Shown here in pieces: positions 30,077-46,157 of a stretch of DNA of 64,000 nucleotides; within the stretch, counting starts at the first letter, position 1, and every line of letters starts with the position of its first letter. Origin of the DNA: Natronosalvus vescus (GTDB taxonomy: Archaea > Halobacteriota > Halobacteria > Halobacteriales > Natrialbaceae); the NCBI RefSeq assembly GCF_023973145.1, contig NZ_CP099546.1, positions 558,001 to 622,000 of the forward strand, read 5' to 3'. The notes beneath the pieces are model-generated. The model saw only the letters and a program-made list of their open reading frames with translations. It was not told where the DNA came from and did not search any database. A program made the translations under genes and the position numbers.

Positions 30077-31180
30077 TCACTCGTACACCGGCAGGCGCGC
30101 CGACCGCTCGGATCCCTCGAGGAACGGTAGCGGCTTCAGGATCGCGGGCACTTCCTCGCCGCCGACGCGAACGGACAATGTACGGCCGTCCTCCTCGAGG
30201 CCGTACTCGACCAGGGCCAGCGCGATGGGAGACTCGAACATCGGCGTTCTCGCGGCCCGGGTCACCTCGCCGACGGTGGCGTCGCCGTCGAAGATGGTTG
30301 CACCGCCCGCGGGTACCGAGTCACCCTCGAGGGTCAATCCGACCAGTTTCCGGCTCGGTTGGCCGCGATTTTCCACTCGGGAGACGACCTCCTGGCCGAC
30401 GTAACACCCCTTCTCGAAATCGAGGGCCAGCCGCAGGCCGAGAACGTTCGGGACGGTTCCCTCTAGTTCGCTCGAAAAGAGCGGGGAACCGGCCTCGAGG
30501 GTCAGCGTCTCCCAGGTTCGGTAGCCGAACGGGGCGGCGTTCAGTCCCTGGGTGGAGAGGACGTCGTGGACGTCGGCCGCATCGTCGGCGCTGCAGACGA
30601 CCTCGTAGCTCTCCTCGCCGGCCAGTCCCTCGGTTCGAATCACGCTCACGCCGGCGTCGCCCATCGACCCGCGAACGAACGAAAATCGCTCGTCGGGCGA
30701 CCCGGGGCCGGTGAGGACGCTGGCGATCTTCTCGGTCGCCGTCGGCCCGTGGACGCCGAAGACGGCGAACTCGTCGGTTGCGTCCCGGATATCGACGTCC
30801 TGGATGAACACCTTCTCCGACCAGTCGGCGGCGATGTCGGCGGCCTGATCCGGCGGGGTGAACAGCAACAGCCGTTCGCCGGCGTTGTAGACGTACAGTT
30901 CAGATTCGATCCGCCCCTGGGGGTCGAGGAGGAGGGCGTAACAGCCCTGGCCATCGGCTGCGGGAACGCGATTCGAGACGACGTTATCGACGTACTCGAG
31001 CCGATCGTCGCCCTCGACGACGAGCACGCCGTAGGCGACCTCGAGCAGTCCAACGCCGTTTCGGACGGCGCGGTGGGCCCGTTCGGGGCGTCCGTAGTGG
31101 TCGACGACGCGCCGGCCGTCGCGCTCGAGGAAGGTTGCACCGTGATCGTCGTGGATCGACTCGATGACGCTCGGCTTCAT
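30077..31180 (-). CDS. YgfZ/GcvT-family folate-binding protein
   Basis: A 367-aa protein of the aminomethyltransferase-like family. The N-terminal part resembles GcvT (VVDHYGRPERAHRAVRNGVGLLEVAYGVLVVEGDDRLEYVDNVVSN). The YgfZ signature K-G-C-Y-x-G-Q-E is present in DFEKGCYVGQEVVSRVENRG. YgfZ/IBA57 proteins help assemble or maintain Fe-S clusters in a folate-dependent way. An aminomethyltransferase role is less likely because no other glycine-cleavage genes are near. It is divergent from acs1. Confidence 0.9.
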   Translation of the reverse strand: MKPSVIESIHDDHGATFLERDGRRVVDHYGRPERAHRAVRNGVGLLEVAYGVLVVEGDDRLEYVDNVVSNRVPAADGQGCYALLLDPQGRIESELYVYNAGERLLLFTPPDQAADIAADWSEKVFIQDVDIRDATDEFAVFGVHGPTATEKIASVLTGPGSPDERFSFVRGSMGDAGVSVIRTEGLAGEESYEVVCSADDAADVHDVLSTQGLNAAPFGYRTWETLTLEAGSPLFSSELEGTVPNVLGLRLALDFEKGCYVGQEVVSRVENRGQPSRKLVGLTLEGDSVPAGGATIFDGDATVGEVTRAARTPMFESPIALALVEYGLEEDGRTLSVRVGGEEVPAILKPLPFLEGSERSARLPVYE

Positions 31181-31276: not shown

Positions 31277-33235
31277 ATGGGAGACAGAGCGGCTGTCGAC
31301 GATGACTCGAGCGTGGACGGACGGCTGTCGCCGCCGCCGTCGTTCGTCGAACAGGCGAACGTCGGTGAGAACCTCCGCGAGGAGTTCGACCGGGAGTGGC
31401 CGGCGTGCTGGAACCGGGCCGGGGAGTGTCTCAGCTGGGAGACGCCCGCCGACTCGGTGCTCGACGATTCGGAACCGCCGTTTTATCGCTGGTTCCCCGG
31501 GGGACAGCTCAACGCCGCCTACAACTGCGTCGACCGACACCTCGAGTCCGGCCGAAAGAACCACGCGGCAATCCGCTGGGAGGGCAAAGACGGCGAACGC
31601 CGAACCTACACCTACCAGGAACTGTTCGTCGAGGTCAACGAGTGTGCGGCGGCCCTCCGCGACCTCGGGGTCGAGGAAGACGACGTCGTGACGATCTATC
31701 TCCCGATGATCCCCGAGTTGCCGATCGCGATGCTCGCGTGTGCGCGCATCGGCGCCCCTCACTCGGTCGTGTTCGCCGGGCTCTCGGCGGCCGCGCTCGC
31801 GACCCGGATGGACGCCGCCGAGAGCGACTTTCTGCTCACCTGCGACGGCTACTACCGCCGGGGTGACGCCTTCAACCAGAAACGCAAGGCGGACAACGCC
31901 GTCCTCTCCGTCGACGCCGACGTGACGACGGTCGTCGTCGACCGTCTGGGCGAGGAACTCACACACGTCCTCGGCTCGAACGAACACGATTACGACGACC
32001 TGCTCGAGACCCACGCCGGGGCGACGGTCGACCCGGTCACTCGCGACGCCGAGGACATGCTGTTCCTGATGTACACCTCGGGAACGACCGGCGAGCCGAA
32101 AGGGGTAGTACACTCGACTGGCGGCTACCTCGCCTACGCCGCCTGGACCACACGAACCGTCCTGGACGTCAAGCCCAAGGACACCTACTGGTGTGCGGCC
32201 GACATCGGCTGGATCACCGGCCACTCCTACATCGTCTACGGCCCGCTCGCACTCGGGACGACGACGGTGATGTACGAGGGTACGCCTGATTACCCGGACC
32301 GCGACCGCCTCTGGGAGCTCGTCGAACGGATGGCCGTGGACGTCTTCTACACCGCACCGACGGCAGTTCGGGCGTTCATGAAGTGGGGGACGGCGTACCC
32401 CGAGGCGCACGACCTCTCGAGTCTCCGCCTGCTCGGAACCGTCGGCGAGCCGATCAACCCGCGGGCGTGGCACTGGTATCACGAGCACATCGGCGGCGGG
32501 GAGTGCCCGATCGTCGACACCTGGTGGCAAACCGAAACCGGCGGGATCGCGATTTCGACGGTGCCGGGCGTCGACGATATGAAACCCGGCGCGGCTGGGA
32601 AGCCACTGCCCGGGATCGAGGTCGACCTGCTCGCCTCGGATGGAACGCCCGTCGATTCCGGCGAAACGGGCTACCTGACGCTCTCCCGACCGTGGCCGGG
32701 GATGGCGAAAACGCTGTACGACGGTGACGACCGCCACCTCGAGGAGTACTGGCAGCAGTTTTCAGACCCTGACGCCGGTCGCTGGCGATACGCGAGCGGG
32801 GACGCCGCCCGGATGGACGAGGACGGCTACCTGACGATTCTCGGTCGCGTCGACGACGTCATCAACATCTCCGGCCGGCGCTTCAGCACGATGGAGATCG
32901 AGTCGGCCATCGTCGGCGTCGAGGGCGTCGCCGAAGCCGCCGTCGTCGGCGGCCCCGACGGCTCGGACGTCTACGCCTACGTGAGCACCGAAAGGGGAAC
33001 CGAACCGGGTGCGGAACTCGAGGAACGAGTCCTCGCGGGCGTCGAACGGGCGATCGGTTCGATCGCGCAACCGGGAACGATCGTCTTCACGCCCGAATTG
33101 CCGAAGACGCGGTCGGGCAAGATCATGCGTCGGTTGCTCGAGGACGTGACGAACGGGGAGCCGCTCGGTGATACGAGCGCGTTACGGAATCCGGAGATCG
33201 TCGGCGAAATCCAATCGACGGTCCGTGACCAGTAG
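31277..33235 (+). CDS. acs: Acetyl-CoA synthetase (AMP-forming), copy 1
   Basis: This enzyme activates acetate to acetyl-CoA through acetyl-AMP. The 652-aa product starts at the ATG at 31277 (MGDRAAVDDDSS). The long open frame upstream runs antisense to the YgfZ-like gene and is not part of it. Motifs present are the ATP-binding MYTSGTTGEPKGVVHST, DTWWQTETGG, the GRVDDVINISGRR hinge, and PKTRSGKIMRRLL with the regulatory Lys at the end. It shares the order of residues with copy 2 (35770-37743) almost throughout, and a recombinase-like/Bat regulator lies between them. Propionate is an alternative substrate. Confidence 0.95.
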   Translation: MGDRAAVDDDSSVDGRLSPPPSFVEQANVGENLREEFDREWPACWNRAGECLSWETPADSVLDDSEPPFYRWFPGGQLNAAYNCVDRHLESGRKNHAAIRWEGKDGERRTYTYQELFVEVNECAAALRDLGVEEDDVVTIYLPMIPELPIAMLACARIGAPHSVVFAGLSAAALATRMDAAESDFLLTCDGYYRRGDAFNQKRKADNAVLSVDADVTTVVVDRLGEELTHVLGSNEHDYDDLLETHAGATVDPVTRDAEDMLFLMYTSGTTGEPKGVVHSTGGYLAYAAWTTRTVLDVKPKDTYWCAADIGWITGHSYIVYGPLALGTTTVMYEGTPDYPDRDRLWELVERMAVDVFYTAPTAVRAFMKWGTAYPEAHDLSSLRLLGTVGEPINPRAWHWYHEHIGGGECPIVDTWWQTETGGIAISTVPGVDDMKPGAAGKPLPGIEVDLLASDGTPVDSGETGYLTLSRPWPGMAKTLYDGDDRHLEEYWQQFSDPDAGRWRYASGDAARMDEDGYLTILGRVDDVINISGRRFSTMEIESAIVGVEGVAEAAVVGGPDGSDVYAYVSTERGTEPGAELEERVLAGVERAIGSIAQPGTIVFTPELPKTRSGKIMRRLLEDVTNGEPLGDTSALRNPEIVGEIQSTVRDQ

Positions 33236-33338
33236 GTTTCGCAAACTCGACTCAAACGAAATATGTCCCCCTGCTTCGATACCGAGTTCCATCGTTCAAG
33301 ACCAAAGACGATATGATATCGATCGCTCAATGGATATG

Positions 33339-33346
33339 CTTTTATT
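33339..33346 (+). promoter_or_regulatory. TATA box of the Bat-fusion regulator gene
   Basis: CTTTTATT in an AT-rich stretch lies about 24-31 bp before the ATG at 33370, implying a leaderless mRNA. Confidence 0.55.
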
Positions 33347-33369
33347 CGTAATAATTGAAACAGCGAACC

Positions 33370-35385
33370 ATGTCCGGTGGCAACGCTGAATCGGTGGCCC
33401 TGACCCCGAGACAGTACGAGGGAATCCTCAACGCCGCCGACACCTATCGCGAGGCCCTCGTCGTTCGTCTCTGTGGCGAGGTGGGGCTCCGACCCGTGGA
33501 ACTCGCTCGCTTGCGCCCCGGCGACGTCCGCCAGCTTCGAGACGATCCGCCGCGGTACGGACTCGCCGTCAGGGACGGCTCACAGGCTAACCGCGGGAAG
33601 AGCGGCGCTGACGTCGACGACAACGACGGCGACAGCACCGACGACCTGGGTTCCGAGACGACCGCTCGAATCGACCGAATCGCCTTCCTCCCGACCCACG
33701 TCGAACGCGACCTCCGGCGGTACGCAACCAGCAACGGCATCGACGAGGGCGATCGGCTCGTTCCCGTGACGGCCCGTCGTTTGCAGATGCTCGTAGCCGA
33801 GGTCACGACCCGGGCCGGCGAGGTGATCGACGATCCGATGGTCGCGTCGACCTCCTCGAGCGACCTCCGTCGGTACTTCGCCCACCGTGCGCTCGTCGCC
33901 CACGACGTGAATCCGCGGGCGGTGAAAGCCGCCGGCGGCTGGCACAGCTTCGAGGCGCTCGAGCCCTACCTGCCGGAACCGTCGCCGGACGAACTGGTCG
34001 AGGCGTTCGAACCGCTCGAGCGGCCAGTTGGGGGAACGGCCGCCCATCGACACCGTCACGTGGAAGCGCCACAGCCACGGCTCGAGGCGACTGACGGAGA
34101 TAACGTGGAGGCAGGATCCGCCGTCGAACGTCGTCACCCCGACCCCGAAACACAGCAGGCGGTCACGGCGGCGCTGCTCGAGGCGTCGACCCACGAGGCG
34201 ATCGAGGAAGCGGTCTGTGCGGCGCTCCTCGAGGGACGCGCCTACGAGTTCGCCTGGTTCGATCGAACGGCCGTCGCCGGGAACCGACGTACGTGGCGGG
34301 TCGCAGACGACCGACGATCTGCGCTGGTCGAGCAGGTGACGACGGCGCTCGAGGCGGTTGATAGGGTTCAATCTACCGACTCGGTGCAAACGGTGGATGT
34401 AGCGTACCCGGCGAATTTGGATGGTGACATCGATGCCGACATCGGCGACGCCGACGGCGACGGTGATGGCGGTGATACTGTCACCATTCACGAGAACGTC
34501 GTCGAGAGCGACGTCTTCGAGGGTCCCGTCGCGACGGTTCCGATTCGTTACGGGGACACCGTCTACGGCACGCTCGGCCTCGGCGCACATCGATCGGACG
34601 CGTTCGACGACCGGGAGCGAGCGTGGCTCGAGACCGTCGGTCGGCAGATCGGCCACGCCATCGCGGCCGTCCGGCGGCGCAACCTCTTGCTCTCCGATGC
34701 CGTCGTCGAACTCGAGTTCGTCTGTCGCGACGAGGGCTCGTTTTTCGTCGACGCCGCCGGCCGACTCGACTGCCGGTTCGAACTCGATTCGCTCATCCCC
34801 GTCGAGGAGCACACGCAACTGTACTACGTCACCGTGACCGGCGCTGGACCGGCGGCGGTGTTCGACCTCGTCGAGACCGATCCCGGCATCGACGACTGTC
34901 GCGTTATCGAGACCTACGAGGGCGGTAGCCGGCTCGAGTTCGTCGTCGAGGGCTCATCGCCGACGCTGACGCTGATGGAGTACGGCGTGACGGTTCTCGA
35001 GTCGGTCACCGATGGGGGTGCGACGACGATCACCGCCGAGTGTGCGAGCGATACCGATATCCGAACGGTCGTCGACGGCTTGCGCTCGTCGTTTCCGGGG
35101 TCGGAACTCGTCGGCAAACGCACCGTCGAACGATCAGTACAGACGGCCCGTGAGTTCCAGCACGACCTGCACAACCGCCTCACTGACCGCCAGGAAGCGG
35201 CGCTCCGGGCGGCGTACTCTGGTGGGTACTACGACTGGCCCCGGGAGAGTACGGCCGAGGAAATCGCCGACGCGATGGGCATCTCCTCGCCGACGCTTCA
35301 CAACCACCTTAGAAAGGGTCAACACGAACTCCTGCGGACGTTTTTCGATGCCTCGACCGTTGATGGCGATGCGAGGGACAGATAG
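33370..35385 (+). CDS. Regulator fusing a tyrosine-recombinase-like module to GAF, Bat and HTH_10 domains
   Basis: A 671-aa transcription factor. Residues ~10-205 resemble the catalytic domain of tyrosine recombinases: R41 in GLRPVEL, SSSDLRRYFA with R167 but Ser164 where the HxxR His is expected, then GGWH192S and Y200. With the His lost, it is more likely DNA-binding than cleaving. A GAF domain follows at ~265-440, a Bat domain at ~455-610, and HTH_10 (LTDRQEAALRAAYSGGYY, then SSPTLHNHLRKGQHEL) at ~620-660. Its position between two acs genes suggests control of acetate use. The short low-complexity Asp/Gly insertion near 355-370 is unremarkable. Confidence 0.88.
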   Translation: MSGGNAESVALTPRQYEGILNAADTYREALVVRLCGEVGLRPVELARLRPGDVRQLRDDPPRYGLAVRDGSQANRGKSGADVDDNDGDSTDDLGSETTARIDRIAFLPTHVERDLRRYATSNGIDEGDRLVPVTARRLQMLVAEVTTRAGEVIDDPMVASTSSSDLRRYFAHRALVAHDVNPRAVKAAGGWHSFEALEPYLPEPSPDELVEAFEPLERPVGGTAAHRHRHVEAPQPRLEATDGDNVEAGSAVERRHPDPETQQAVTAALLEASTHEAIEEAVCAALLEGRAYEFAWFDRTAVAGNRRTWRVADDRRSALVEQVTTALEAVDRVQSTDSVQTVDVAYPANLDGDIDADIGDADGDGDGGDTVTIHENVVESDVFEGPVATVPIRYGDTVYGTLGLGAHRSDAFDDRERAWLETVGRQIGHAIAAVRRRNLLLSDAVVELEFVCRDEGSFFVDAAGRLDCRFELDSLIPVEEHTQLYYVTVTGAGPAAVFDLVETDPGIDDCRVIETYEGGSRLEFVVEGSSPTLTLMEYGVTVLESVTDGGATTITAECASDTDIRTVVDGLRSSFPGSELVGKRTVERSVQTAREFQHDLHNRLTDRQEAALRAAYSGGYYDWPRESTAEEIADAMGISSPTLHNHLRKGQHELLRTFFDASTVDGDARDR

Positions 35386-35769
35386 GTCGTCGCGTCCCGC
35401 CGGTCACCGCACGTGTCGGTGAACGCGCCAGGCCGTCTGTGTGACCGCGGCAGTACAGTGGTACACCGTTTACTGTTCCCTCCAAGAGCGTGTGGTCGCT
35501 CGAAGCGGCCAACGCTCTTCGTGACACCAGCCGATGACTAACCATCTAGACTCACGCTCATTGGCAACTGATATCGGCCGAAAACCCATCAGATCAGTGC
35601 GGTTTTCTCGCCGATTCGGTCGGAAAACGTGACAGTCATCGACACCAAACAATTTTGTGCAGTTAAACCGAGTGTGGAACAATGGTTGAACTGATTTCAC
35701 TCGAGGACTCGATTTAGTACAGTTAGATCCTGTATTTATCCCCGTTATCTCACAGTGTTGGAGTGTACC
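35386..35769. other. Intergenic region upstream of the acs2 operon
   Basis: No gene is seen. The region is clearly less G+C-rich than its neighbours, as expected of regulatory DNA. It contains two direct copies of a GT(G/A)CAGTTA(A/G)A motif 60 bp apart and a TATA box, listed below. It also holds a loosely repeated TCGGYCGRAAAAC pair near 35576 and 35617. Confidence 0.5.
35655..35739 (+). promoter_or_regulatory. acs2 promoter with two direct 13-bp motifs
   Basis: TTGTGCAGTTAAA (35655-35667) and TAGTACAGTTAGA (35715-35727) match at 10 of 13 positions and are 60 bp apart, about six helical turns. TATTTAT at 35733-35739 is the TATA box, about 31-37 bp before the ATG at 35770. The second motif abuts the BRE/TATA, as expected for a factor contacting basal transcription proteins. 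Confidence 0.5.
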
Positions 35770-37743
<1,974 letters not shown>

Positions 37744-37800: not shown

Positions 37801-38220
37801 ATGACAGAGAACGACACTCATGATTCGACTGCTGCCGACGACCCGCCGGCCGTCGAACCCGACGGCGGTGTCAGAACGGACGAGTATCTCGACAAGGAAA
37901 TCAACATCTTCCGCCCGGCGACCCCGTTTATGCGCGATCACCTGAAAGTGATCTGGGGCGCCTTCATCGCCTGGATTCTCGTCGTCTTCGGTCCCGTCAC
38001 CGGCGCACTGCTGGCACCCGACCTGTTCGCCGACACGACCGTCCTCGGCGGGTTCCCGCTGCACTTCGTGCTGACGGCGATTTTCACCCCGCTCGGAGCG
38101 CTGTTGCTCTCGGTTGCCTACGCAATACAGCGCGACCGACTCGACGCGAAATACGACATCTCCCATGACGTCGATTCTCCCGATGCGGACGCCGTCGCCG
38201 CCGACGGAGGTGACCACTGA
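37801..38220 (+). CDS. DUF4212 small subunit of a sodium:solute symporter
   Basis: A 139-aa protein with a hydrophilic N-tail and two membrane helices (HLKVIWGAFIAWILVVFGPVT and FPLHFVLTAIFTPLGALLLSVAYAI). It is the small partner that accompanies SSS symporters of the acetate/pyruvate type. Its stop overlaps the start of the large subunit by one base (TGATG). It starts at the ATG at 37801, 57 bp after acs2. Confidence 0.9.
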   Translation: MTENDTHDSTAADDPPAVEPDGGVRTDEYLDKEINIFRPATPFMRDHLKVIWGAFIAWILVVFGPVTGALLAPDLFADTTVLGGFPLHFVLTAIFTPLGALLLSVAYAIQRDRLDAKYDISHDVDSPDADAVAADGGDH

Positions 38221-39950
38221 TGGCAACCCTGCTGGAGTCGTGGACGCTCGAGGTGCCTGTATCGGTTCTCGAACCGTCGGCACTCGACAGTGCGCTCGAG
38301 GTCGTTGCGCTCGAGACCGCCCTCGACGTCGGCGAGTTCAAGCTGATCCCGGCACTGACCGTGGCGGCGATGCTGGCGCTGTTCCTCGGCGTCGGCTACT
38401 TCTTCCGGGTCGCCGCCGTCGACGAGCTGTGGGTCGCTGGCCGTTCGATCGGGAGCATCGAGAACGGAATGGCCATCGGCGCCAACTGGATGTCGGCGGC
38501 GTCGTATCTCGGTGTCGCGGCTCTGGTCGCCACCGCCGGCTACTTCGGACTGGCGTACGTCGTCGGCTGGACGACTGGCTACTTCATTTTGCTCATCTTC
38601 ATGGCGGCCCAGTTCCGCCGCTTCGGGAAGTACACCGCACCCGACTTCGTCGGCGACCGGTTCTACTCCGACTGGGCACGCGGCATCGCCGCGTTCACCA
38701 CCCTCGCCATCGCGTTCACGTACGCGATCGGTCAGGCGAGCGGCATGGGGCTGATGGCCCAGTACATTTTCGGCATCTCCTACGAAGCCGGGGTCATCCT
38801 GCTGATGGGCGTTACCATCGGCTACGTCGCCCTCTCGGGGATGCTCGGGACGACGAAAAACATGGCCATCCAGTACGTCATCCTCATCGTCGCGTTCACC
38901 GTCGGCCTGTACGCGACGGGGTGGAGTCAGGGCTGGTCGACCGTCCTTCCGTACCTCGAGTTCGGCTCCGAGGTGGCCGAGGCCGCGAGTATCGAGGAAC
39001 AGTTCGTCGAACCGTTCGCGAACGCGGGCTACTACGCCTGGATCGCGCTGGCGTTCAGTTTGATCGTCGGTACCTGCGGTCTCCCCCACGTCCTCGTTCG
39101 GTTCTACACGGTGGACAACGAGCGGACGGCCCGCTGGTCGACCGTCTGGGGGCTGTTCTTCATCTGCCTGCTCTACTGGGGAACAGCCACCTACGCGGCG
39201 TGGGGCGGCCTCCTGTACGACCGTGAGGTGACAGACGGCGGCGGCTTCGCTGGCGAGGGCGGGATGTCCGGCGCTGAAGCCGACGCGCTGGTCGTGCTCA
39301 CGACCCAGCTCGCCGACCTCCCGACCTGGCTCGTCGGTCTTGTCGCGGCCGGTGCCGTCGCCGCAGCACTGGCGACGACCGCCGGGTTGTTCATTTCGGC
39401 GTCCTCGGCCGCCGCTCACGACATCTACACGAACCTCTACAAGGAGGACGCGACCCAGCGCGAACAGATGATCGTCGGCCGCGCCACGATCCTGGGCATC
39501 GGTGTGCTCGTCACGCTCATCGGGCTCAATCCACCGGCGCTCATCGGCGAACTGGTCGCGATGTCCTTCGCCATCGCGGGCACCGTCTTCTTCCCCGTGT
39601 TCTTCCTCGGACTCTGGTGGGAGAACACGACTCGAGAGGGAGCCCTCGCCGGGATGGTAACGGGAATCACCATCTCCTTCGGGGCGATCCTGAACGACAC
39701 GGCCATCCCGATGTACACCGGGTACGAGGAGGCCGTGATCCCTGCACTCGCTACCTGGCTCCCCGGAACGTCCTCGGCGCTGGTGGGCGTGCCAGTGGTC
39801 TTCGCCGCCATTATCGTCGTCTCCATCGTCACGGAGAACCCGCCACGGCAGGTCAAGCGCCTCGTCCGCCAGTGTCACAGCCCCGAGCCGATGCACCGCA
39901 TGGAATCAGCCGAAGACGCCGCCAGCGGCGGCACACCCGCAGACGACTAA
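38220..39950 (+). CDS. Sodium:solute symporter (SSS family), acetate-type large subunit
   Basis: A 576-aa carrier with about 13 membrane helices. Family segments are visible: VGYFFRVAAVDELWVAGRSIGSIENGMAIGANWMSAASYLGVAALV near the start, AQFRRFGKYTAPDFVGDRFYS, and GLPHVLVRFYTV. These are typical of SSS members paired with DUF4212 (VC_2705-like), which carry acetate, pyruvate or other monocarboxylates with Na+ or H+. Cotranscription with acs2 favours acetate. The stop is followed by UspA after 2 nt. Confidence 0.94.
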   Translation: MATLLESWTLEVPVSVLEPSALDSALEVVALETALDVGEFKLIPALTVAAMLALFLGVGYFFRVAAVDELWVAGRSIGSIENGMAIGANWMSAASYLGVAALVATAGYFGLAYVVGWTTGYFILLIFMAAQFRRFGKYTAPDFVGDRFYSDWARGIAAFTTLAIAFTYAIGQASGMGLMAQYIFGISYEAGVILLMGVTIGYVALSGMLGTTKNMAIQYVILIVAFTVGLYATGWSQGWSTVLPYLEFGSEVAEAASIEEQFVEPFANAGYYAWIALAFSLIVGTCGLPHVLVRFYTVDNERTARWSTVWGLFFICLLYWGTATYAAWGGLLYDREVTDGGGFAGEGGMSGAEADALVVLTTQLADLPTWLVGLVAAGAVAAALATTAGLFISASSAAAHDIYTNLYKEDATQREQMIVGRATILGIGVLVTLIGLNPPALIGELVAMSFAIAGTVFFPVFFLGLWWENTTREGALAGMVTGITISFGAILNDTAIPMYTGYEEAVIPALATWLPGTSSALVGVPVVFAAIIVVSIVTENPPRQVKRLVRQCHSPEPMHRMESAEDAASGGTPADD

Positions 39951-40599: not shown

Positions 40600-40812
40600 T
40601 CAGTCCTCGGTCGCCGCCTCGAGACTCCACACGAAGCCGAAGTAGGCGACGATGCCCGCGAGCATGAACAGGTAGTACGCGAGGTCGGGCCCCTCGAGGA
40701 TGCGAAAGAGGAGATCGGCGAGGGTCACCCAGACGACGGCGAAGAGGAGGTCGGTGAGAATCCCCCAGCGCTGGTCGCGGGCGGCTGCGAGTCTGGTTCG
40801 GAGGTCGGTCAT
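40600..40812 (-). CDS. Small membrane protein (70 aa), unknown function
   Basis: The product has a charged N-tail (MTDLRTRLAAARDQRWG) and two hydrophobic helices (ILTDLLFAVVWVTLADLLF and LAYYLFMLAGIVAYFGFVW), ending in EAATED. The size and layout match small conserved haloarchaeal membrane proteins, but I cannot name a family with certainty. It stands alone between the acetate operon and the cupin gene. Confidence 0.7.
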   Translation of the reverse strand: MTDLRTRLAAARDQRWGILTDLLFAVVWVTLADLLFRILEGPDLAYYLFMLAGIVAYFGFVWSLEAATED

Positions 40813-41014
40813 CGTGTGGTTACCGCCCGCCGTTCGGGCTGTTCAGGCCGTCGAACCTGCTCGAGCCGCCCGGATTGGTCACTCTGCTCGAAGCGTTCGG
40901 ACTGTTCACGTCCGTGCGCTCGCGTACCTGTGCAACGCATGCTGGGAGGGTTCCGTGGCTGTTCGAAAAAGGGTGTCGACGCTCCGCTCCTTCGTTCCCG
41001 TACTCGATACCCGC

Positions 41015-41488
41015 TTACTCCCAGTACTCGGTATCGTCCTCGATCCGATAGTACCCCTCGAGCGACCGTTCGTCCCGACTGCCCGGCGGTGCGCCGACGT
41101 AGACCCCGAACTTGTCATCGTCGGGGTACACCGTCACGTCCGGTTCGGTCATCGTCGACAGCATGAGGTATCGAAGCGTCTCCTCGCCGTCGTTGACGAC
41201 CCGATGGCCGCCGCGTTCGTCCGCCGGGAAGGCCGCGTAGTCCCCGGACTCGAGCGCTTCGTTCCCGTCGGGCGTCCGGAGGAGGCCGCTTCCGGAGAGC
41301 ACGTACAGCGCCTCCGCGTTCGCCGTGTGGTAGTGATAGGGCCACGAGCGTTTCCCGGGCGGTAGTTCGTACAGGCTACAGCCCAGCCCCGTCGCCTCGA
41401 GCGCCCCCGAGAGTTCCTTGCGCCGAAACGTCGCCTCGCCGTGTTCGTACGTCCGCCACTCGAGTTCCGACTCGTTGACCGTTGGCAT
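41015..41488 (-). CDS. Cupin-domain protein
   Basis: A 157-aa small barrel protein. The first cupin motif is seen as GKRSWPYHYHTANAEALYVLSGSGLL (H-x-H and Glu, metal ligands) and the second as SGDYAAFPADERGGHRVVNDGEE with a further His. Members act as dioxygenases, isomerases or sugar-binding proteins. The substrate is unknown and the neighbours give no clue. I chose the ATG at 41486-41488 (MPTVNESELEW); the open frame upstream is antisense to the YihY leader. Confidence 0.87.
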   Translation of the reverse strand: MPTVNESELEWRTYEHGEATFRRKELSGALEATGLGCSLYELPPGKRSWPYHYHTANAEALYVLSGSGLLRTPDGNEALESGDYAAFPADERGGHRVVNDGEETLRYLMLSTMTEPDVTVYPDDDKFGVYVGAPPGSRDERSLEGYYRIEDDTEYWE

Positions 41489-42536: not shown

Positions 42537-45500
42537 TCACCTGTCATCGCTAGCCGTGTTCTCGAACAGCAACTCGAACGCTTTTCGCTCGGCTTTTCGG
42601 AGGTGCTGGTGGAACGTCGGCGGTGCCACTCCCATCGATTCGGCGACCGCTTCGCCAGTCGACGTTCGAGGCCACTCGAAGAACCCAGCGTAGTACGCGG
42701 CTTCCAGGCAGGCGCGCTGTCGATCGGTGAGGGCTCTGACGAGGTGATGCTGCATTCGCGTTGGATCGTCGCGCGGTCGCGTGACCTGTTTCCGGCGGAG
42801 CATCTCCGCCTGTGGGTATTGTTCCGTGATGGCGTCGGTGACGCCCCGAACCTCGGCCGTTGGCGCGAGGTGGATTATCGTCTGGATGTCGCCGTCTTCG
42901 ATGACGGCCCGTTCGACGTAGCCGCCGAGGGATCCAACGGTCGAAATCACGGGCGGATCGACCATCCGAAGTTCGAACCTGGTCGAATCGTCCGCCGAAA
43001 AGGTGGTTACGCCCTTCCAGTGTGGGTGGCGCTCGACGAGGGTACTCAGGGTGTCGGTCGCATCCGGCGTTGCGTTGCCGTAAACGAGGAATTCGCCGTC
43101 GCCGAGGGGAACCGTATTCTCGAGCGTGATGGTTCCCTCCATCCCGACCGGCCTGTCGAGGTCAGCAAACGCGTCCTGGATCTGGAACTCGAGTTCGACG
43201 AGGTCGTCGCTCAACAGTGCCCGTCGTTGCTCGGCGGCGGCTATCGCGTGGCCGATGATCGTCCCGAGGCGACCGATGATCGCCGTCTCGTCGGCGTCGA
43301 ACGCGTTCAGTCGGTCGGCGTACACGCCGAGCATGCCATACACGGTTCCCTCGTGAACGATTGGAACCGACGCCATAGCAGTGAATCCGTACTCAGCCGC
43401 GGCCTCCCGCCACGGTTCGAACGATGGATCCGAGAAGACGTCCTGGATGGCCTGTGTCTCCTGTTCGCGGATGGCCGTCGCTCCGGGGCCCTCGCTCGTC
43501 GGATCGTCCGGATCCATCGAGATCGTAATCTCGTCGACGTAGCCGCGCGTCTCGGCGGTGGCACGCGGTGTGATGGTGTCGGTGGCCGCGTCGACGGCGG
43601 CCAGCCACGCGAACTCGTAGGCGTCGGCCGCCGCCAGTGCGTCACAGGCGGCCTGTTCGATCTCCCCCCGAGTCGATTGCTCGATGACGGCGTCCGTGAT
43701 CTCCCTGCTGACCTCGTTGATGCTGTTGAGCGCCGCGAGTTGTTCGCGCTGGCGCTCGAGTTCGTCTTTGTACTGCGTTCGTTCGGTAACGTTCTGTGAC
43801 ATTCCCAACGCGGCAAAGACATCGCCGTCGTCGTCGCGAACGGGAGTGAAGTTGAACTGGTACGTGTCGTCTCCAATCTCGCTCTCGAACTGTGACCGCT
43901 CGCCGTCGAGGGTCGCTTCGTAGTGTGGTATGACGACATTCGCGACCTCTTCGGGGAGCGATTCACGTAGTGAGGTTCCCTCGAGTTCCGCTGCCGTCAT
44001 ATCCGAATCACCCTCTAGCGTCCCACCGAACGCGACGTATCGAAGGCTGGAGTCTACCAGTGCGACGACGCCGTTCGGGAAGTGATCGATGAACGTTTGA
44101 TAGCGGCGTCTCGACTTCTCGAGTTCGCGCTCGCGCTCGACGCGATCACTGATGTCTCGGACGACGCCGACGTGACCGGTTTCGTCGACCTCGACCGGCA
44201 ACAGGCCGATACGACTCTCCACGACGAAGGAGGCTCCGTCGGCCCGGTAGAGTTCTTCTTCGAGGACGGCGATGTCCGTATCCCCCAATTCGAGTTCGGT
44301 CTGTTTTTCGTTCGCGATTTCGACGAAGTGATCGTCAAACGTTGTTTCCGCGTGGGCACCGAGGAGTTCCTCCCGATCGTATCCCGTCAACGACGCAAAC
44401 GCATCGTTGACCATCGTGAATCGGCGGTCGCTGTCGAGGACGTAGATTCCCTCGTCGACCGTCTCGAAGATTCGCTCGTATTGCTCTAACGTGCGCTCGC
44501 GTTGTTTCTGATCGGTGATTTCGCGGAAGTACACCGAGAGTCCGCTCTCGGACGGGTAAATGGCGTTCGAGAACCACCTGTCGATCGGATCGTAGTAGTC
44601 CTCGAAGACGGCCGGTTGCTGGGTGTCCCGCGCCTCGTACAGCGCGCGTTCGAACGGATCGGTGAGAACGACCTCGTCGCGAATGTCTTCGCCGACGGCG
44701 GACTCGTCAACCCCCAGGACGCTCGCCGCGTGGTCGTTCAGGTAGCGAAACTGCAGCCGATCGTCGAGCGCGTAGAACCCGTCGGAGATCCGCTCGAACA
44801 CCTCGTCGAGTTCGGCCTGGAGCTCGTTGCGCTGGCGCTCGAGTCGAAGCTCCATCCGTTTCAGGTCAGTCACGTCTTTCCCGGCAACGATGACTCGTTC
44901 GACCGCGCCGTCGTCGTCGAACAGTGGCGCTGCAGTGAGCGACACCCAGTGACGATTGCCGGTCGGATCCGTGTGTTGAACCAGTCGCTCGGTGATCGGC
45001 TCCCCGGTTTCGATCACGGTCGGAACCGGGTGCTCCGCCGGCGGAACCGCCTTCCCGTCGGCGTCGTAGACGTTCAAATCCTCGAACGTGACCGTCGGGA
45101 GTTCCGGCTCCTCGATTCCCAGTGCGCGTCTCGCCCGGGAGTTCATCCGCTCGAGCGACCCGTCGTCCTCGAAGACTGCAAGCCTGATCGGGGCAGTCTC
45201 CAGCAGTCGTTCCGAGAGTTCGCGCTCGCGGTGAACGGTGTCCTCGTGTTGGCGGCGATCGGTCATGTCCCGCGTTACCTTGGTGTACCCCTGCAGCGAC
45301 CCGTCCGCGTCGCGGATTGCCGTGATGGTGACGTTCGCCCAGAATAGCGAGCCGTCGGCTCGAACACGCCACCCTTCCTCCTGTATCGAGCCGCGTTCGG
45401 CGGCCGTGTTCAGGTTCGCCTCGGGAACGCCGTCGTCGCGGTTCGCCTCTGTGTAGAACGTGGCGACGTGTTTTCCGACGATGTCGTCTTTCCCGTAGCC

Positions 45501-45920
45501 TTTGATCCGTTCGGCACCAGCATTCCAGGTCTGGACGTACCCCTCCGCGTCGAGCAGGAAGATTGCGTACTCCTCGACCGCATCGACCAGTGCCTCGAAC
45601 TGGACGTGCGCGTCTCGAGGCGACCCCACTCGCGGTTCCCGATCCGTGACGTCAGTACCGGTCGATTCTGGTCGAACCGTCGACTCGCGACCCTGTTCGA
45701 CACGGGGCGTCGCCGACGGTCGCCACCAGACGCGGGCGTTTGCACCGACTTTTTTGGTTTCGAGCCAACCGTGTTCGACCAGCTGCTCCAGTCGAGCGTA
45801 GGTACCTCGATGCCCGAGGTCGTGCGATGCTGCGACGTCCGAGGTCGTGAGCGGTTCGCCACCAACCTCGAACGTCGTGAGCGTTTCCTGGAGGTGGGCA
45901 GTCAGCGGTTCCGATCCCAT
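42537..45920 (-). CDS. Large multi-PAS Bat-type regulator
   Basis: A 1127-aa soluble sensor-regulator. A winged-helix-like segment opens it (TSDVAASHDLGHRGTYARLEQLVEHGWLETK). Several PAS domains follow in series, each ending in an IT-D-R-R/E-R type boundary (TRDMTDRRQHEDT, AGKDVTDLKRME, FREITDQKQRERT, VRDISDRVERERE). Next come a GAF domain, a Bat domain and a C-terminal HTH_10 (LTDRQRACLEAAYYAGFFEWPR, then APPTFHQHLRKAERKAFELL). It probably integrates redox, light or ligand cues to control transcription directly. I chose the ATG at 45918-45920 (MGSEPLTAHLQ). Another ATG 33 nt upstream is possible. Confidence 0.92.
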   Translation of the reverse strand: MGSEPLTAHLQETLTTFEVGGEPLTTSDVAASHDLGHRGTYARLEQLVEHGWLETKKVGANARVWWRPSATPRVEQGRESTVRPESTGTDVTDREPRVGSPRDAHVQFEALVDAVEEYAIFLLDAEGYVQTWNAGAERIKGYGKDDIVGKHVATFYTEANRDDGVPEANLNTAAERGSIQEEGWRVRADGSLFWANVTITAIRDADGSLQGYTKVTRDMTDRRQHEDTVHRERELSERLLETAPIRLAVFEDDGSLERMNSRARRALGIEEPELPTVTFEDLNVYDADGKAVPPAEHPVPTVIETGEPITERLVQHTDPTGNRHWVSLTAAPLFDDDGAVERVIVAGKDVTDLKRMELRLERQRNELQAELDEVFERISDGFYALDDRLQFRYLNDHAASVLGVDESAVGEDIRDEVVLTDPFERALYEARDTQQPAVFEDYYDPIDRWFSNAIYPSESGLSVYFREITDQKQRERTLEQYERIFETVDEGIYVLDSDRRFTMVNDAFASLTGYDREELLGAHAETTFDDHFVEIANEKQTELELGDTDIAVLEEELYRADGASFVVESRIGLLPVEVDETGHVGVVRDISDRVERERELEKSRRRYQTFIDHFPNGVVALVDSSLRYVAFGGTLEGDSDMTAAELEGTSLRESLPEEVANVVIPHYEATLDGERSQFESEIGDDTYQFNFTPVRDDDGDVFAALGMSQNVTERTQYKDELERQREQLAALNSINEVSREITDAVIEQSTRGEIEQAACDALAAADAYEFAWLAAVDAATDTITPRATAETRGYVDEITISMDPDDPTSEGPGATAIREQETQAIQDVFSDPSFEPWREAAAEYGFTAMASVPIVHEGTVYGMLGVYADRLNAFDADETAIIGRLGTIIGHAIAAAEQRRALLSDDLVELEFQIQDAFADLDRPVGMEGTITLENTVPLGDGEFLVYGNATPDATDTLSTLVERHPHWKGVTTFSADDSTRFELRMVDPPVISTVGSLGGYVERAVIEDGDIQTIIHLAPTAEVRGVTDAITEQYPQAEMLRRKQVTRPRDDPTRMQHHLVRALTDRQRACLEAAYYAGFFEWPRTSTGEAVAESMGVAPPTFHQHLRKAERKAFELLFENTASDDR

Positions 45921-46157
45921 TGGCCTGTATGCAGGCTTCAAGCGTATTAACATTCCGTCGACGGAACTGACGCGGTAGATACGCGTGATGCGGCCGGAGA
46001 ATCCGTGTTGTGAAGCCCGTTTACCTCGTCTGTATTCGCGTGTTCGAAACCGCACGGACACACCAATCGAACGCACCTAATCACTTCTAGTGTCCCCTTA
46101 TGCATCTTGAGGGTTATCCCATATATGTATCAACGCTGAACGACTGCCTCCCTTACC

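Follow-up and report, generated by a model that had tools for sequence, protein, structure and literature searches.

A degenerate tyrosine-recombinase-like domain fused to a Bat-type regulator in the acetate locus of haloarchaea: a candidate regulator with paired operators predicted in its own promoter

Why does a protein encoded in an acetate locus carry a tyrosine-recombinase-like domain in front of a Bat-type regulator? The window, i.e. the whole 64,000-nucleotide stretch of Natronosalvus vescus DNA analysed here, encodes such a fusion protein on its forward strand, in a stop-free reading frame of 671 aa from an ATG at 33370 to a stop at 35385. These limits are those given by the initial annotation, and the orthologue ATGs, which likewise lie at the start of the recombinase-like domain, agree with the start at 33370. 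The protein begins with a tyrosine-recombinase-like catalytic-fold domain (residues 1-217; 33370-34020), delimited by profile, predicted fold and orthologue starts, and continues with a GAF-like sensor domain that has a disordered insert (residues ~259-441; 34144-34692; from Pfam and relatives, the GAF_2 match being part of it), a BAT domain (residues 443-597; 34696-35160; Pfam E 7e-50) and a C-terminal HTH_10 DNA-binding domain (residues 604-655; 35179-35334; Pfam E 1.7e-19), all read from the forward strand. BAT followed by a C-terminal HTH_10 is the Bat-type layout, which bears out the earlier reading of this part as a sensor-regulator of that type; the HTH_10 domain is the best-conserved part of the fusion protein. 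A PAS domain is present in 28 of 54 relatives and is absent from the window protein (residues ~217-258).

Taken alone, the window protein gives a weak and partial Phage_integrase match (residues 11-54, E 3.9e-5, under the Pfam cut-off). This is not a chance match, since PF00589 was matched by all 54 relatives scanned (best E 5.7e-12), a family profile of 49 sequences found the archaeal XerA of the PDB (P. abyssi, E 4.4e-14), and the structure predicted by AlphaFold2 for residues 1-217 (mean pLDDT 89.8) has a tyrosine-recombinase catalytic-domain fold spanning residues 11-217. Specifically, the top structural match was XerA (5hxy; Z 18.2, rmsd 4.1, 168 aligned residues) and the P. abyssi Xer also scored highly (4a8e; Z 17.1, rmsd 2.5, 145 aligned residues), with further matches to Cre, XerH and lambda Int, while PHROGs labels the domain as integrase; structure prediction, the check suggested with the initial annotation, thus agrees with a recombinase fold. 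No core-binding (SAM-like) domain precedes the catalytic domain in the window protein or its orthologues, as judged from their starts and the predicted structure. When the model of the full-length window protein was searched with Foldseek, Thermoplasma acidophilum Ta1207 (5m86, E 9.8e-4) was among the matches.

The window protein has an incomplete version of the catalytic set R, D/E, K, H, R, H/W, Y in that the His is missing, and this loss alone would not settle whether the recombinase is inactive. Comparison of 57 fusions revealed that E44, R167 and W191 are kept in all 57, R41 in 53 and Y200 in 48, while the catalytic His at column 164 is found in two (S32, R13, G5, N3, H2) and the beta-hairpin region likewise has a Lys, at any position, in two of the 57, the Lys of the window protein in this region lying in a private insert. 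The initial annotation placed R41, S164, R167 and Y200 correctly; its H192 was not a landmark, since the His/Trp-III position is W191 and column 192 is variable (R20, Q10, E7, G6, D5), and both E44 and the loss of the beta-hairpin Lys were missing from its list. It also asked whether Ser164 is fixed while Y200 drifts, and this is not the pattern seen: column 164 has lost His without being fixed as Ser, and Y200 is mostly retained. The full set R, E, K, H, R, W, Y is kept in 32 of 32 stand-alone relatives of ~200 aa (including a few duplicates of one gene), and in a maximum likelihood tree all sampled fusions form one clade with a support of 100/100; the loss of catalytic residues thus goes with the fusion. 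Moreover, R136, R137 and M140 in the predicted recognition helix (residues 135-153; 33772-33828, forward strand) are invariant among the fusions (Q139 is kept in 55 of 57), and the stand-alone relatives have different residues at these three positions. The loss of Lys, the loss of Tyr in nine fusions and the lack of a core-binding domain, taken together, make recombination unlikely; we infer that the domain is catalytically inactive in the fusions, its degenerate fold probably being retained as a DNA-binding domain.

Scanning genome contigs with the single protein gave no match, and the relatives were recovered with a profile. In a phylum-wide sample, long fusion frames were present in 32 genomes of Halobacteria (~53 sampled) and none was seen outside this class. 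As to a viral origin, the search of viral contigs found no relative of the fused domain and one relative of the stand-alone form. In Haloferax denitrificans (L084/L147) a stop or frameshift interrupts the fusion gene downstream of the part for the recombinase-like domain, leaving a 245-aa open frame; the gene is either a pseudogene or the result of a sequencing error. The stand-alone proteins (L190-L219, L076 and L088), ~200 aa in length, belong to a large family in haloarchaea whose members consist of a tyrosine-recombinase-like catalytic domain only, with complete catalytic residues, and may be autoregulated regulators, recombinases, or both.

The initial annotation had the fusion gene flanked by acs genes, and it is. 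Upstream lies acs1, encoding an AMP-forming acetyl-CoA synthetase (31277-33235, forward strand; likely start 31277, not 30566), and downstream acs2, encoding another (35770-37743, forward strand; Pfam and start analysis), followed on the same strand by the genes for a DUF4212 small protein (37801-38220; E 3e-18), the usual partner of this symporter family, and an acetate permease-like VC_2705-family sodium/solute symporter (38220-39950). The acs1 frame runs ~237 codons upstream of its likely start, into a divergent aminomethyltransferase-like gene (30077-31180, reverse strand). Beyond the symporter are a 221-aa ORF without a Pfam match (40700-41365, forward strand), with relatives similarly placed in several loci, and, some kilobases past the acetate operon, a second BAT/HTH_10 regulator of 1179 aa with several PAS domains and one GAF domain (42537-46076, reverse strand). 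Among 137 loci picked by domain similarity and not by neighbourhood (some represent one genome twice), acs genes directly flank the fusion gene on both sides in 128; the nine exceptions comprise five contig ends (L096, L134, L150, L163 and L169), the frameshifted H. denitrificans gene counted as two loci, and two loci (L070 and L157) with no downstream acs match. The usual gene order is acs1, regulator, acs2 and symporter; in the window a DUF4212 gene precedes that of the symporter.

On plasmids of Haloferax lucentense and H. alexandrinus the annotated order is acs, "bacterio-opsin activator domain-containing protein", acs, DUF4212, VC_2705 symporter and universal stress protein, and the stretch from the first acs gene to the symporter contains no further regulator. 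The order matches that of acs8 (HVO_A0158), acs7 (HVO_A0156), HVO_A0155, ssf/actP (HVO_A0154) and uspA28, and in Haloferax the acs7-HVO_A0155-ssf-uspA28 transcript is present only on acetate (PMC7746861). In the annotated plasmids the fusion gene is thus directly upstream of the acetate-induced acs7-actP operon, and HVO_A0157 is the expected Haloferax volcanii orthologue, given its locus number and the synteny. HVO_0895, located between acs1 (HVO_0894) and acs2 (HVO_0896), was also considered and was rejected because the Haloferax order acs-regulator-acs-DUF4212-symporter-usp fits HVO_A0158 to HVO_A0154. We found no paper naming HVO_0895 or HVO_A0157 among the open-access papers searched, which does not prove that there is none.

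Dyad counting in the region upstream of the regulator gave the core TTCG-N15-CGAA, and the regulator promoters were found to carry paired palindromes of the form TTTCG-N15/16-CGAAA. In the window the distal candidate operator, TTTCGCAAACTCGACTCAAACGAAA (33237-33261), lies just past the acs1 stop and the proximal one, TTCGTAATAATTGAAACAGCGAA (33345-33367), between the TATA-like TTTTAT and the start codon (both unstranded). Across 113 distinct promoters, counts for spacers of 5 to 25 peaked at 15 (124 exact cores) and 16 (81), with no other spacer exceeding 19. One or more exact cores TTCG-N15/16-CGAA occurred in 110 of these promoters and two or more in 94, against 2-7 and 0-1 promoters, respectively, in five dinucleotide shuffles. 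The spacer class is usually the same within a promoter (two N15 in 56, two N16 in 34, few mixed). Typically the distal site is 120-200 bp upstream, close to the acs1 stop, and the proximal site ends just ahead of the start codon, downstream of the TATA-like stretch, so a protein bound to the latter should block initiation. Distances between the two sites cluster at helical-turn steps (p ~0.017, near-equal distances collapsed), which is suggestive only of helical phasing. The short core is common in the window genome (24 copies in 64 kb), and a single copy therefore means little. A genome-wide regulon could not be derived from the palindrome, since strict matches in the window genome were at about chance level except at the regulator's promoter. 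That promoter, which the initial annotation did not consider, is the strongest predicted target. Direct control of acs1, which it did propose, finds no backing: the palindrome is enriched upstream of neither acs1 nor acs2, and by eye the only conserved element upstream of acs1 is a TATA-like stretch.

The acs2 promoter has an element of its own. A box, TTTTGYACACCTAGA, adjoins the acs2 TATA, as a rule 58 bp ahead of the acs2 start; in the window it is represented by a degenerate copy with three mismatches, TTTAGTACAGTTAGA (35713-35727, forward strand), and by a second partial copy at 35653-35667. With up to three mismatches TTTTGYACACCTAGA was detected at 71 of 112 fusion loci, in no shuffle and in none of 19 genomes lacking the fusion, a co-occurrence that is confounded because most of these 19 also lack a symporter beside the acs gene. 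In 14 of 21 family genomes TTTTGYACANCTAGA is present exactly once, and wherever the location of the fusion gene is known the box lies close to it; in Halorubrum/Haloferax-type loci the box is missing or another sequence takes its place. The repeat CAGTTAAACC, noted by eye upstream of the window acs2, was discarded for lack of conservation (2 of 132). By analogy with the presumed action of Bat at the bop promoter, we propose that HTH_10 of the fusion regulator may act at the acs2 box.

Which domain reads the paired palindromes, and for what purpose, can be approached through the stand-alone relatives, which have no HTH_10. Most of the 30 distinct promoters examined for them have a 25 bp palindrome, RCGACTT-N7-AAGTCGY, ~96-118 bp upstream, and many have a second, weaker palindrome centred ~12 bp before the start; CG is found at positions 8 and 9 on either side of the dyad both in these sites and in the N15 sites of the fusions. 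In Cre the corresponding helix reads bases roughly as far from the dyad, with Arg259 as a key contact, and on alignment by eye R136 falls at the Arg259 position. Because proteins without HTH_10 share the palindrome geometry, the recombinase-like domain is the likely reader, an assignment favoured rather than proven. The reverse arrangement, in which recognition of the paired palindromes falls to the C-terminal HTH_10, leaving the recombinase-like domain as a mere scaffold for dimerisation or protein contacts, would fit a known DNA-binding domain that is also the most conserved, and fused domains can act as oligomerisation units. This arrangement is nevertheless rather unlikely in our judgement, given the layout and dyad geometry of the stand-alone sites and an invariant R136, R137 and M140 in the predicted recognition helix that is hard to square with a scaffold. 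Moreover, HTH_10 matches number 35 in the window genome, and upstream of the other 34 there is no pair and there are only three isolated core matches (gene starts estimated). If the domain were still an active recombinase, acting on the two palindromes to rearrange the promoter of its own gene, this would account for the retention of R41, E44, R167, W191 and mostly Y200 and for the two core-like sites that flank the promoter. We give this hardly any credence: Lys and His are each lost in 55 of 57 fusions and Tyr in nine, the core-binding domain is absent, and both sites are in place in 94 of 113 promoters, with no deletion or inversion product among the promoters read. The earlier idea of a recombinase fold reused for DNA binding therefore holds for the fold, the residue loss, the paired palindromes and the geometry shared with the stand-alone proteins, and the binding itself is predicted.

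The reading we favour, and consider fairly probable, is that the fusion protein is a one-component sensor-regulator of acetate use in which an N-terminal recombinase catalytic domain has been turned into a DNA-binding module. Dimers of this domain would bind the two promoter palindromes, thereby repressing the gene that encodes the regulator, and might hold the two sites together in the manner of a recombinase synapse; the GAF domain (plus PAS in many relatives) would sense an acetate-linked signal, and HTH_10 at the TATA-adjacent box would switch on the acs2-DUF4212-symporter operon. A more elaborate version, in which dead recombinase dimers on two phased palindromes form a tetramer and loop the promoter, acetate sensing by GAF is coupled to two DNA specificities, and the wider stand-alone family uses the same two-site layout, is less likely than not and is put forward tentatively. 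With respect to the acs2 operon, the gene might instead regulate itself only, with another regulator driving the acetate induction of acs2 and the symporter, as the enrichment of the palindrome at its own promoter and not at acs1 or acs2 would allow, together with the fact that no domain is tied to the acs2 box. We regard this as improbable, considering that the acs neighbourhood is kept at nearly every fusion locus across Halobacteria, that the acs2 box, where present, is unique to the fusion locus and that in the annotated Haloferax loci the fusion gene is the sole regulator from the first acs gene to the symporter. Returning to the one-component reading, the claim in the initial annotation that the protein controls acs1 and acs2 survives for the downstream operon, which it may control as judged from synteny, the locus-specific box and acetate induction in Haloferax. 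The protein would then be a concrete candidate, with predicted operators, for the regulator of acetate-specific induction in haloarchaea, including the genetically tractable model H. volcanii with its predicted HVO_A0157.

Part of this is known already, namely the architecture (fam30-04) and the existence of a recombinase-fold repressor (MrpR); not found described are the catalytic loss relative to the stand-alone proteins, the acetate locus, the paired operators and a candidate role in acetate induction. The window domain has the catalytic-domain fold in common with XerA and Cre and differs from them in that it has no core-binding domain, lacks two active-site residues, Lys and His, and forms one protein with a regulator. 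Bat, the bacterio-opsin activator, is a member of the BAT/HTH_10 family and has bop rather than acetate genes as its target. In Halobacterium salinarum it has GAF and a C-terminal helix-turn-helix (PMC3184054); its published description includes PAS/PAC and GAF and no recombinase-like domain. Badel, Da Cunha and Oberto (2021; PMC8371274) list a family, fam30-04, with Phage_integrase, BAT and HTH_10, and GAF_2 in some members. All 54 members of our set match these three domains, and the window protein almost certainly belongs to fam30-04, with SiLiX clustering taken as published; that source lists the architecture, and we found there no mention of catalytic loss, acetate locus, operators or function. 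A proven case of a recombinase-fold DNA-binding repressor that has lost catalytic residues is MrpR/YopR, the master repressor of phage SPbeta (PMC10516654). Both MrpR/YopR (8a0a, Z 12.2) and SroF of phi3T (9rgl, Z 14.7) employ a tyrosine-recombinase fold for DNA-binding repression and match the window domain structurally. In MrpR the core-binding domain, Lys and Tyr have been retained and the first Arg, the His and the His/Trp lost (PMC10516654), whereas the archaeal domain keeps both Arg and the Trp, has lost Lys and His, lacks the core-binding domain that in MrpR accompanies a degenerate catalytic domain, and is joined to GAF-BAT-HTH_10 in a regulator encoded next to metabolic genes, such that the two compare in how they may work only. 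The haloarchaeal fusions would represent, in cells and across a whole class, the conversion of an enzyme domain from mobile elements into a module of a transcription factor, and stand-alone relatives with the full catalytic set still exist for comparison.
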